Origin: Ignavibacteriota bacterium
Lineage (GTDB): Bacteria > Bacteroidota > Ignavibacteria > Tepidaquicellales > Tepidaquicellaceae
Direction of reading: 5' to 3'
Assembly (NCBI GenBank): GCA_020437545.1
Contig: JAGQWH010000011.1
Location: 1 to 45,640 of the forward strand
Length of the DNA: 45,640 nt
In this document: in pieces, positions 8,550 through 12,433 of the stretch
Layout: each line of letters starts with the position of its first letter
Numbering within the stretch: the stretch's first letter is position 1
Notes under the pieces: generated by a model
What the model saw: only the letters and a program-made list of their open reading frames with translations
Database searches by the model: none
Told to the model about the DNA's origin: nothing
Translations under genes and position numbers: made by a program

Positions 8550-10280
8550 ATGAAATTTATCAATACTCAGAAATTATTATTTATTATATGTTTTACTTTC
8601 TCTGTTATTTACTGCTCTTGCAACCAACAAACTCAAAAAATTGCTTCTAAAGATGCAGCAGATATCATATACTTCGGCGGTGACATAATCACTATGGAAG
8701 TTGACAGCTCAAATTATGCTGAAGCCATAGCAATAAAAGACGGTAAGATAATTTTTGTGGGTAAGAAAGCAGATGCCGAAAAGCTACAAGGCGACAGTAC
8801 AACAATGACAGATCTTAAAGGTAAGACAATGCTTCCCGGTTTCATAGACGGACATTCTCACTTTGCCGCATTTTCAAATCAGGCAATTGGTGCACAAATT
8901 CTTCCTTCCCCTGATGCAAATGTAAACAGTATTCCTGATCTGATAAATGAACTCAAAAACTGGCCTACACCTGAGAATATTGCTCTTACAGGCTGGATCT
9001 TCGGTATGGGGTATGATGATTCGGTCCTGGAAGAAAAAAGACACCCTACAAAGGAGGATCTGGATAAAGTTTCCACTGAAACCCCGATCATGATCATTCA
9101 TATATCAGGACATTTTGCAGCAGTGAATTCCAAAGGTCTTGAGATGCTCGGTATAAATTCTGATTCAAAAGATCCTGACGGCGGTATAATAAGAAGAATA
9201 CCGGGATCTACTGAACCAAACGGAGTGCTTGAAGAACTTGCTGCAATACCTTATTATGTAAAAGCGCTTACACCGGCAAATAAAGATTCTATGTTAAAAT
9301 TCATGAAAGCCGGACAGGAAATGGCAATGAGTTACGGTTATACTACAGCGCAGGAAGGAAGAGCTATGGAAAACCATGAACTGCTTGCCGGACTTGCTGA
9401 AACAGGATTTCTTAAAATTGATGTCGTTTCATATATTGATTATTTGTTTACAAAATATATGGAAACGAAATGGTACAGTAAAAATTATATTAATCATTAC
9501 AGGATCGGTGGGGAAAAAGTAACACTCGACGGTTCACCGCAGGGTAGAACTGCGTGGAGAACAATCCCTTACCTCATTCCTCCTCCGGGAGAAGATAATA
9601 ATTATCTTGGTTACCCTGCTATTAAAAATGATAAAGACGTTGAAGAAATTTATAAAACTGCATTTAAAAATAACTGGCAGATACTCACTCATGCAAATGG
9701 AGATGCTGCAGTAGATCAGATGATCAGAACAATGGATGTGGCGGCAAAAGAATACGGCAGCGAAGGAAGAAGAAATGTATTGGTTCACGGGCAATATGTG
9801 AGAATGGATCAGCTTGACTCTTTGAAAAGATTAGACGTAATAGCTTCCTTATTTCCGCTTCATACATTTTACTGGGGTGACTGGCATAAACAAATTATAG
9901 GTGACTCACTCGGCAATGTGATCAGTCCTACCCGTTCAGCATTAAACAAAGGTTTGAAAATAACTATCCATACAGATGCACCTGTAGCTTTGCCGAATCT
10001 TATGCGTGTAATCTGGACAGCTGTTAACAGAACTTCCCGATCAGGAGTAATCATTGGTGAAGAAGAAAGACTTACTCCTTATGAAGCATTGCAAGCAATT
10101 ACGATCTGGTCAGCATATCAGCATTTTGAAGAAAATAACAAAGGTACCCTAAAAAAAGGTAAGCTTGCGGATCTTGTAATACTTGATAAGAACCCTTTAA
10201 AAGTTGCTCCGGATGACATCAAAGACATCAATGTTGAAGAGACAATAAAAGAAGGGAATACAGTTTACAGGAAAAACTGA
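8550..10280 (+). CDS. Amidohydrolase family 3 (YtcJ-like) lipoprotein
   Basis: A metal-dependent hydrolase of the amidohydrolase superfamily, YtcJ/AepA-like branch; the substrate is unknown. The N-terminus is hydrophobic and followed by two cysteines (FIICFTFSVIYCSCNQQ), so it is probably a lipoprotein acylated at Cys22 or Cys24, though the lipobox is loose. Metal-site motifs follow the family order: GFIDGHSHFAAF (His102, His104), TGWIFGMGYDD, ILTHANGDAAVDQM, NVLVHGQYV and ITIHTDAPVALPNLM, ending with KGTLKKGKLADLVILDKNPL, the composite beta-sandwich typical of these enzymes. The length of 576 is normal. It stands alone on the plus strand, converging with the RAYT gene 24 bp downstream. Confidence 0.92.
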   Translation: MKFINTQKLLFIICFTFSVIYCSCNQQTQKIASKDAADIIYFGGDIITMEVDSSNYAEAIAIKDGKIIFVGKKADAEKLQGDSTTMTDLKGKTMLPGFIDGHSHFAAFSNQAIGAQILPSPDANVNSIPDLINELKNWPTPENIALTGWIFGMGYDDSVLEEKRHPTKEDLDKVSTETPIMIIHISGHFAAVNSKGLEMLGINSDSKDPDGGIIRRIPGSTEPNGVLEELAAIPYYVKALTPANKDSMLKFMKAGQEMAMSYGYTTAQEGRAMENHELLAGLAETGFLKIDVVSYIDYLFTKYMETKWYSKNYINHYRIGGEKVTLDGSPQGRTAWRTIPYLIPPPGEDNNYLGYPAIKNDKDVEEIYKTAFKNNWQILTHANGDAAVDQMIRTMDVAAKEYGSEGRRNVLVHGQYVRMDQLDSLKRLDVIASLFPLHTFYWGDWHKQIIGDSLGNVISPTRSALNKGLKITIHTDAPVALPNLMRVIWTAVNRTSRSGVIIGEEERLTPYEALQAITIWSAYQHFEENNKGTLKKGKLADLVILDKNPLKVAPDDIKDINVEETIKEGNTVYRKN

Positions 10281-10304: not shown

Positions 10305-10913
10305 TTATTTTTTTAATCTTCTTTTTTTATAAAATTTATCACTGTTCCATTTCTTAGGGTTATCAGCAATATAATTTTGAATTCGTTCAAACGATCCGGC
10401 ATCACGAATTATATGATCATGAAAACGCGGATGCCATCCAAAACCGGGATTAATTTTATGAATTTCAAATGTACACCTGCCTTTATACCATCTGATAATC
10501 CGTGAAATATTATCATAAAACATTGGGTTCTTTTCACCCGTTACCCCACCCCGCTTATCCGTACACACGCGATTTATCGCGTCTCCTCCACCAACATCAG
10601 AATCCTTATTCGTCCCATCCACATATTTATCAAAATCCGATTTTTCTATTATCAATATTCCATGAACATGATTTGGCATTACAGTATAATTACCTAACTC
10701 TATAAATGGATAATGATTTGGAATATCAACCCAATATTCATCTGCCAGTTTCCCGGTTTCATTCAAATGCATTTCTTCATTTGTAATTACACCAAAAAAA
10801 TGTTCACGGTTCTTTGTACAAATGGTTATAAAATATGCGCCATTATTTCCGTAATCCCATGACTGTAATCGGGCAGATTCAATGCGGTATTTATTTTTGA
10901 ATTTATCTGACAT
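10305..10913 (-). CDS. REP-associated tyrosine transposase (RAYT, IS200/Y1-like)
   Basis: A single-strand HUH nuclease related to IS200/IS605 TnpA, thought to mobilise REP palindromes. The opening RIESARLQSWDYGNNGAYFITICTKNREHFFG is family-typical. The HUH motif is NHVHGILII (His82, His84) and the catalytic tyrosine is probably Tyr181 in FERIQNYIADNPKKW, following GFGWHPRFHDHIIRD. At 202 residues it is full length and uninterrupted. Its upstream side (10976-11128) carries at least three REP palindromes with the core GACGCGATTTATCGCGTC. A further copy lies inside the gene at 10567-10585, encoding about residues 110-116 in a variable linker between the HUH and Tyr parts. It is a domesticated, single-copy type with no flanking transposon ends seen. 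Confidence 0.93.
   Translation of the reverse strand: MSDKFKNKYRIESARLQSWDYGNNGAYFITICTKNREHFFGVITNEEMHLNETGKLADEYWVDIPNHYPFIELGNYTVMPNHVHGILIIEKSDFDKYVDGTNKDSDVGGGDAINRVCTDKRGGVTGEKNPMFYDNISRIIRWYKGRCTFEIHKINPGFGWHPRFHDHIIRDAGSFERIQNYIADNPKKWNSDKFYKKRRLKK
10567..10585. repeat. REP palindrome copy inside the RAYT gene
   Basis: ACGCGAT-TT-ATCGCGT forms a perfect 7-bp inverted repeat and continues as CTC, exactly as in the intergenic copies. It is read in frame by the transposase gene as Gly-Asp-Ala-Ile-Asn-Arg-Val, without disrupting the conserved motifs. Confidence 0.85.
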
Positions 10914-10975
10914 AGCATATACGTTATCGTTTTCAAAATTGAATTCTATATTTTATCGTAACATTTTAATTCGCA

Positions 10976-10997
10976 GAGACGCGATTTATCGCGTCTC
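10976..10997. repeat. REP palindrome, copy 1
   Basis: Arms GAGACGCGAT and ATCGCGTCTC are perfectly complementary around a TT centre. It lies 62 bp upstream of the RAYT start and is a likely substrate of that protein. Confidence 0.88.
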
Positions 10998-11045
10998 ATT
11001 AAATTGTTTTTTGGTTGAATTGTTTTTTCGGTTGAATTGACAAAA

Positions 11046-11061
11046 GCGATTTATCGCGTCT
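11046..11061. repeat. REP palindrome, copy 2 (degenerate left arm)
   Basis: GCGAT-TT-ATCGC with CGTCT following on the right; the left arm beyond GCGAT has decayed to AAAA. Copies 1-3 are separated by imperfect direct repeats of GGTTGAATTGTTTTTT, so palindrome plus spacer seems to have been duplicated as a unit. Confidence 0.75.
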
Positions 11062-11096
11062 GTATATTTCGTGTTTTGGTTGAATTGTTTTTTTGG

Positions 11097-11128
11097 TTGT
11101 AGAGACGCGATAAATCGCGTCTCTACAA
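11097..11128. repeat. REP palindrome, copy 3 (longest, 15-bp arms)
   Basis: TTGTAGAGACGCGAT and its exact complement flank an AA centre: a 32-bp cruciform-capable sequence. The centre is AA rather than TT, so relative to copies 1 and 2 it is in the opposite orientation, as in paired REP/BIME arrangements. The rest of the gap up to 11380 is AT-rich with nothing recognised. Confidence 0.9.
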
Positions 11129-11380: not shown

Positions 11381-12433
11381 ATGAAAAAATTCAAAATAAT
11401 TATTTCATTTACCGGCTTATTCTTTGCTTTGATACTTATGCGGTCTTCATTTTTATATGCATGCACAAGGGTAGTATATCAGGGTCCTGGCAATACAATT
11501 ATAACCGCCAGATCCATGGACTGGAATGAAGATATCGGAACCAATCTCTGGATCTTTCCGAGAGGAATGAATAAAAGCGGTGAGACTCCGCCAAATACAA
11601 TCGAATGGACTTCTAAATACGGAAGTGTGATCGCATCAGCTTATGATATTTCAAGTACTGACGGAATGAATGAAAAAGGTCTGGTTGCAAATCTGAACTG
11701 GCTTGCAGAATCCGAATATCCGATATGGGATAAACAAAAAGCAGGTCTGACTGTTGCTGCCTGGCTCCAGTATGTTCTTGACAATTTCGCAACTGTTGAC
11801 GAAGCTGTCACGGAACTTCAGAAAGAAAACTTTACTATTATTACATCAAACATCCCGGGTACGGACAGGATCGTCACTGTTCATCTTTCTGTATCTGATC
11901 CCACAGGGGACAATGCAATTTTTGAATTTATAAATGGTAAACTGGTAATTCATCATGACCGCTCTTATAATGTTATGACCAATTCACCTGTTTTTGATAA
12001 ACAGCTTGCGCTTGAAGAATACTGGAGTGATATCGGAGGGACAGTTTTCCTCCCCGGCACAAACAGGGCTGCTGACAGATTTGTAAGAGCTTCATTTTAT
12101 ATAAAAGCCATTCCACAAACTGATGACATAAGATTAGCAGTTGCAAGCGTATTCAGCGTAATAAGAAACTGTTCCGTACCGCTCGGTATCACCACACCAG
12201 GTCAGCCGAATATATCTTCTACCCGGTGGAGATCTGTTTCAGATCAGAAAAACAGAGTTTATTATTTTGAAACTACAACTACACCAAATACCTTCTGGGT
12301 GGATTTTAAGGATGTCAATTTTTCAGAAAACGCTCCTGTCAAAAAACTCAGTCTTACAAAAGGTGAAGTATACTCTGGAAATTCTGCAGATAAGTTTGTT
12401 GAAACATCTCCTTTTAAGTTTGAAGGGTTATAA
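11381..12433 (+). CDS. Choloylglycine hydrolase/penicillin V acylase-like Ntn hydrolase
   Basis: A linear-amide C-N hydrolase. A signal peptide (residues 1-27) ends in LYA immediately before Cys28; removing it would expose Cys28 as the N-terminal nucleophile, as in this family. Other active-site positions are visible: Arg44 and Asp47 in ITARSMDWNED, Asn201 in YNVMTNSPVFDKQ, and a late Arg in SSTRWRSVSDQ. Length (350) and motif order fit periplasmic Gram-negative members. LYAC also resembles a lipobox, so lipidation at Cys28 cannot be excluded, but it would block the nucleophile. Family substrates are conjugated bile acids, penicillin V and N-acyl homoserine lactones; sequence alone does not decide, and a free-living host would make quorum-signal or peptide amides more plausible. 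It seems monocistronic. Confidence 0.93.
   Translation: MKKFKIIISFTGLFFALILMRSSFLYACTRVVYQGPGNTIITARSMDWNEDIGTNLWIFPRGMNKSGETPPNTIEWTSKYGSVIASAYDISSTDGMNEKGLVANLNWLAESEYPIWDKQKAGLTVAAWLQYVLDNFATVDEAVTELQKENFTIITSNIPGTDRIVTVHLSVSDPTGDNAIFEFINGKLVIHHDRSYNVMTNSPVFDKQLALEEYWSDIGGTVFLPGTNRAADRFVRASFYIKAIPQTDDIRLAVASVFSVIRNCSVPLGITTPGQPNISSTRWRSVSDQKNRVYYFETTTTPNTFWVDFKDVNFSENAPVKKLSLTKGEVYSGNSADKFVETSPFKFEGL

Follow-up and report, generated by a model that had tools for sequence, protein, structure and literature searches.

A RAYT transposase gene of an Ignavibacteriota bacterium carries a copy of its own REP palindrome in frame. Palindromes at the same place recur across the RAYT family, where they occur far more often than synonymous codons would yield, are confined to certain codon phases, match the REPs flanking their own gene much more often than those of a relative, and show coordinated changes of both arms, in step with the flanking copies. 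On balance, we lean towards the explanation that locally copied REPs settle in a tolerant loop of the protein, stay palindromic by re-copying or template switching and need no function of their own. The spread of REPs, and the way in which a RAYT stays matched to its REPs, are unsettled questions in the field, and RAYT genes holding their own REP provide an in-frame record of REP replacement.

The RAYT gene and the palindromes at its locus

The window, that is, the whole stretch of DNA analysed, comprises 45,640 nt (GCA_020437545.1, contig JAGQWH010000011.1, positions 1 to 45,640). The RAYT protein encoded in it has an HUH motif of the form NHVH (residues 81-84), WH at 160-161 and Y181 within YIADNP, and in the alignment with homologues NHVH and Y181 occupy invariant columns. 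It matched the NCBIfam model REP_Tyr_transpos (NF047646) with an E value of 6e-13 and 48.9 bits, short of the equivalog cut-off of 80 bits, and the match was broken into two stretches around the linker; the match to Pfam Y1_Tnp (PF01797) barely exceeded the cut-off of that model. The best PDB match of an AlphaFold model built from 54 aligned relatives (mean pLDDT 80.5) was 4ER8 (E 2e-6). The name RAYT, or TnpA_REP, is given because of homology and fold, not of the NF047646 cut-off. In the same model, linker residues 100-123 had pLDDT below 50 and are predicted to be disordered. By eye, the open reading frames flanking the locus are amidohydrolase-like (8550-10280) and choloylglycine-hydrolase-like (11381-12433).

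Table 1. Features of the RAYT locus, in positions of the window
Feature	Positions	Strand	Description
RAYT / TnpA_REP gene	10305-10913	minus	202 aa, intact ORF
Variable linker DNA	10530-10650	minus	HUH motif to IIRWYKG helix, about residues 88-128
In-gene REP core	10567-10582		ACGCGATTTATCGCGT; 16 nt, 7-bp perfect arms, 2-nt centre
Wider in-gene REP copy	10558-10590		outer stem and feet partly decayed
Upstream REP 1	10976-10997		perfect arms, GAGACGCGATTTATCGCGTCTC
Upstream REP 2	11042-11061		degenerate AAAAGCGATTTATCGCGTCT, one side decayed
Upstream REP 3	11097-11128		double-foot GTAG...CTAC, 15-bp perfect arms
Two direct repeats	10981-11106		61 nt each, 82%, start-to-start 65; REP + TTGAATTGTTTTTT-type spacer, BIME-like array

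The initial annotation had placed three REPs upstream of the gene, one of them in the opposite orientation with 15-bp arms, and a fourth inside it, and all four were recovered, the second upstream copy in degenerate form. REP 3 is the one turned round, its loop being in the opposite orientation (ATAAAT as against ATTTAT). The in-gene palindrome is perfect over its core, and the sequence that it has in common with the flank REPs extends to 10585. In gene sense it reads GAC GCG ATA AAT CGC GTG and encodes DAINRV (D111-V116), which falls within the stretch of low pLDDT. The description of the linker as non-conserved, with the HUH and Tyr motifs intact, also held; linker peptides vary among the homologues.

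The in-gene REP agrees with the consensus core of the three upstream REPs (10976-11128) at 19 of 20 positions. Compared by eye with the 28-nt double-foot sequence GTAGAGACGCGATAAATCGCGTCTCTAC of REP 3, it agrees at about 24 of 28, and its outer stem is therefore partly decayed. As folded single-stranded DNA it reached -6.3 kcal/mol (z -3.0), the intact flank REPs -10.7 and -16.2 kcal/mol and the degenerate REP 2 just -3.7 kcal/mol (z -1.45).

A scan of the window gave four matches to the REP, against a mean of 0.86 in shuffled sequences, none of which had four. Random draws of synonymous codons for the same protein produced a 19/20 match to the flank REP, at whatever position in the gene, in 7 of 20,000 trials. 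With up to three mismatches allowed, the assembly of the window's genome contains the REP five times, of which four are at the RAYT locus and one is on another contig (C62), a count to be taken with caution because the assembly is in 429 contigs and repeats may be under-assembled. The palindrome of the window is thus a local, low-copy element and not an abundant genomic repeat; the initial annotation had not noted this low copy number, and the count ruled out a high-copy REP family in this genome. The gene is flanked by a REP palindrome with a GTAG foot (REP 3); as regards copy number, the word REP is a generous one.

On contig C62 (L003, 1430-1524), intergenic tandem half-palindromes GTACAGACGCGATAAATCGTA are followed by a full palindrome with the window REP core, and no RAYT was found among the open reading frames listed at that site. 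A second RAYT of the same genome (contig C96, L005, 1-441, minus strand) runs past the contig end; its linker consists of peptide repeats (LGVETP, LGVSTH) for which REP-like palindromes code.

Linker palindromes across the RAYT family

The homologue set was gathered from RAYT loci of relatives, of the phylum, of a genome-wide scan and of the genus of genome G283, and comprised 201 distinct full-length genes. Taking a score of at least 9 as a strong palindrome, a threshold above the score of the window's own copy, we found one in the linker of 139 of the 201 genes, where shuffling the synonymous codons of each gene would lead one to expect 2.5; the remainder of the same genes had seven. The alignment of relatives proposed in the initial annotation revealed palindromic DNA at the same place, with differing peptides and differing palindromes. 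Linkers with a palindrome were longer (median 66 vs 62.5 aa, p 0.005).

The centres of even palindromes fell in the three codon phases 66, 40 and 0 times, the unused third phase being the frame that reads the GTAG foot as a stop. Among palindromes of the GCGAT type, to which that of the window belongs, each of two frames was used 17 times, and the peptides read from them resemble either DAINRV or ETRLIAS. One palindrome is thus read in two frames with different peptides, and it is therefore the DNA palindrome that recurs, not the peptide.

Strong palindromes were kept in both members of 19 of the 22 gene pairs with at least 80% core identity. The palindrome itself was common to nearly all pairs at that level and to only 29% of those at 60-70%. 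Some linkers, and one extragenic site, contain half-REPs or REP units repeated in tandem. In one Flavobacterium RAYT (L251) the linker has grown to roughly twelve 42-nt units. A GCGATTAATCGC palindrome is present in most of these, and the frame, which stays open, is 363 aa long.

The exact sequence AGACGCGATNNATCGCGTCT was searched for in 15 genomes: it had 1-6 copies in 11 of them, 9, 13 and 18 copies in G479, G516 and G505, and none in G115. In Flavobacterium G628 the in-gene copy is the sole exact REP of the genome, and G530 and G556, also Flavobacterium, have two exact REPs each, one in the gene and one just downstream. With an exact REP just once or twice in the genome, such loci have a simplicity that suits an in vivo test of the internal palindrome.

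Match to the flanks, coordinated change and possible origins

The 20-nt in-gene core matched its own flanks at 17 or more of 20 positions in 57 of the 139 genes; the expectation derived from other loci is about 4. As a control for kinship, we compared related genes whose in-gene REPs differ, in 48 disjoint pairs. The match was better to the gene's own flanks in 37 pairs and to those of the relative in 10 (p 1e-4); at the 17/20 level, own flanks matched in 40 of 96 cases and the relative's in 8 of 96. Downstream matches lay close to the gene, at a median of 44 nt past it (first quartile 18). On the RAYT tree, REP stem type switches at least 58 times, compared with 113-117 (about 114) in three shuffles of the labels.

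Both arms of the palindromes showed coordinated changes. In two loci (L164 and L194) with neighbouring sequence in agreement on both sides of the gene and 90% RAYT core identity, the in-gene and downstream REPs both differ in the inner stem, on both arms; the metagenome-assembled genomes concerned are labelled as different orders, Flavobacteriales and Cytophagales. Five Flavobacterium RAYTs share a site next to one tRNA gene, with one downstream sequence common to three of them (L037, L225, L226) and another common to the remaining two (L227, L228). Their in-gene palindromes differ by two double changes, both compensatory, and no change in the inner arms is left uncompensated, a pattern that selection would fit as well. 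Across disjoint close pairs we counted 16 compensated double changes and 39 single ones, where the divergence of the remaining linker predicts about 4 and about 108; the null is a simple one, a few pairs are misaligned, and each pair's reference was chosen to be palindromic, which favours the result.

We suggest that the RAYT locus itself would be where REP copies originate, the simplest agent being the HUH transposase, which would cut and join REP hairpins as single strands near its own gene. Copies in the gene would survive just in the disordered linker and in frames that avoid the REP's own TAG stop. Re-copying, conversion or template switching at replication might then keep a settled palindrome near-perfect and replace it jointly with the REPs of the flanks; failing this, it would decay, as the copy in the window has begun to do. 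We infer both the role of the transposase as copying agent and the lack of a needed function for the in-gene copy. The idea of a tolerated insertion, raised in the initial annotation, fits the disordered linker (residues 100-123) and the unused TAG frame, but clean empty and filled insertion ends, sought in four gene pairs, were not found, the candidates differing across a wide stretch. The 19/22 retention counts against a merely tolerated insert, and the genomes in which the in-gene copy makes up all or half of the exact REPs (G628, G530, G556) leave little donor pool, which counts against local copying.

The same retention, together with the near absence of other copies in some genomes, means that a function in cis has to be considered. 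The in-gene palindrome may serve in autoregulation or in something similar, as the initial annotation had proposed. As a working element it would be bound by RAYT in the gene itself (as single-stranded DNA at the fork) or in the mRNA, limiting expression, or would form a second substrate end with the REP past the stop codon. Judged from the sequences, we hold this to be unlikely, yet a serious possibility. Its stereotyped position and deep retention argue for it, as do the nearness of the downstream matches, the genomes in which the in-gene and one downstream REP are the whole REP set, and the compensatory changes that preserve the palindrome in RAYTs of the same site. Moreover, among same-REP pairs at 60-70% core identity, which were selected for similarity, 92% of the palindrome was kept against 34% at fourfold sites. 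Against it, about a quarter of the homologues (50/201) have no linker palindrome scoring 8 or more while their catalytic core is intact, the tree requires at least 38 changes in the presence of the palindrome, and the tandem REP arrays of some linkers resemble unchecked expansion. A slightly less probable version of such a role is that the palindrome is a maintained cis component of the RAYT element, replaced in place along with the flank REPs, gene and substrate thereby changing their stem type jointly.

Copying by the transposase would be dispensable if an ancestral insertion had been perfected by template switching (quasipalindrome correction) and expanded by slippage. This established mechanism can yield compensatory changes during replication without selection (PMC8794818), and the surplus of compensated changes and shortfall of single ones relative to expectation, as well as the half-REP tandem arrays, agree with it. 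It acts within one palindrome, however, and alone leaves the sharing of a new stem between gene and flank unexplained, so we think it rather improbable as the whole account. Least credible by far is an accidental match, or one imposed by a conserved peptide. The window copy is short, with 7-bp arms and a score under that of the family count, but the synonymous-codon controls, the two peptides read from one palindrome and the local position of four of the five assembly copies speak against accident. A conserved peptide over non-palindromic DNA is the opposite of what the homologues show, and they, the synonymous controls and the two-frame use refute this reading.

Relation to known REP systems

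The window gene is most likely a RAYT of subclass 2.4, or group 4, with its own REPs in and around the gene. In the passages of Quentin et al. 2018 (PMC6006769) that concern it, TnpA_REP subclass 2.4, onto which RAYT group 4 of Bertels is mapped, is marked by in-frame REPs lying between the HUH motif and the Tyr motif. The window shares with this subclass an HUH-Tyr RAYT with a variable insertion between the two motifs (beta3 to alphaC) that carries an in-frame REP, and a flanking double-foot REP of the form GTAG...CTAC (REP 3). Of the motif set NH[IFV]H, WQ and YIxNNP given there, NHVH agrees, whereas WH and YIADNP are each one residue off; most homologues in the alignment have WQ and NNP, unlike the window protein.

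The in-gene REP was thus already described in 2018, and the window gene adds one more case. The passages concerned report the insertions without own-flank match, coordinated switching, compensatory change or synonymous-codon tests. As far as they show, and with the proviso that work after 2018 may have been missed, what is new here is the own-flank match, the bias in reading frame, the controls with synonymous codons and the switching in coordination.

The E. coli TnpA_REP (4ER8, bound to a REP hairpin) resembles the window protein as its best structural match and as a hairpin-binding HUH enzyme. It differs in belonging to subclass 2.2, in-gene REPs being assigned by Quentin et al. to subclass 2.4 in the passages cited, and in having many REPs, whose stems are bulged. 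REPs usually have a high copy number genome-wide, though this is no defining feature of the enzyme, in contrast to the five copies of the window REP. Palindromic repeats read in frame within genes are also known from the GTAG/CGTC REPs and the Rickettsia palindromic elements; these differ in lying in unrelated host genes, such as uvrA and recB, mostly at different sites, and not in the transposase's own gene (Di Nocera et al. 2013, PMC3733652). A third RAYT from the genome of the window (L006, on contig C3) is flanked on both sides by GGACGCATATATGCGTCC palindromes, with no linker palindrome reported.
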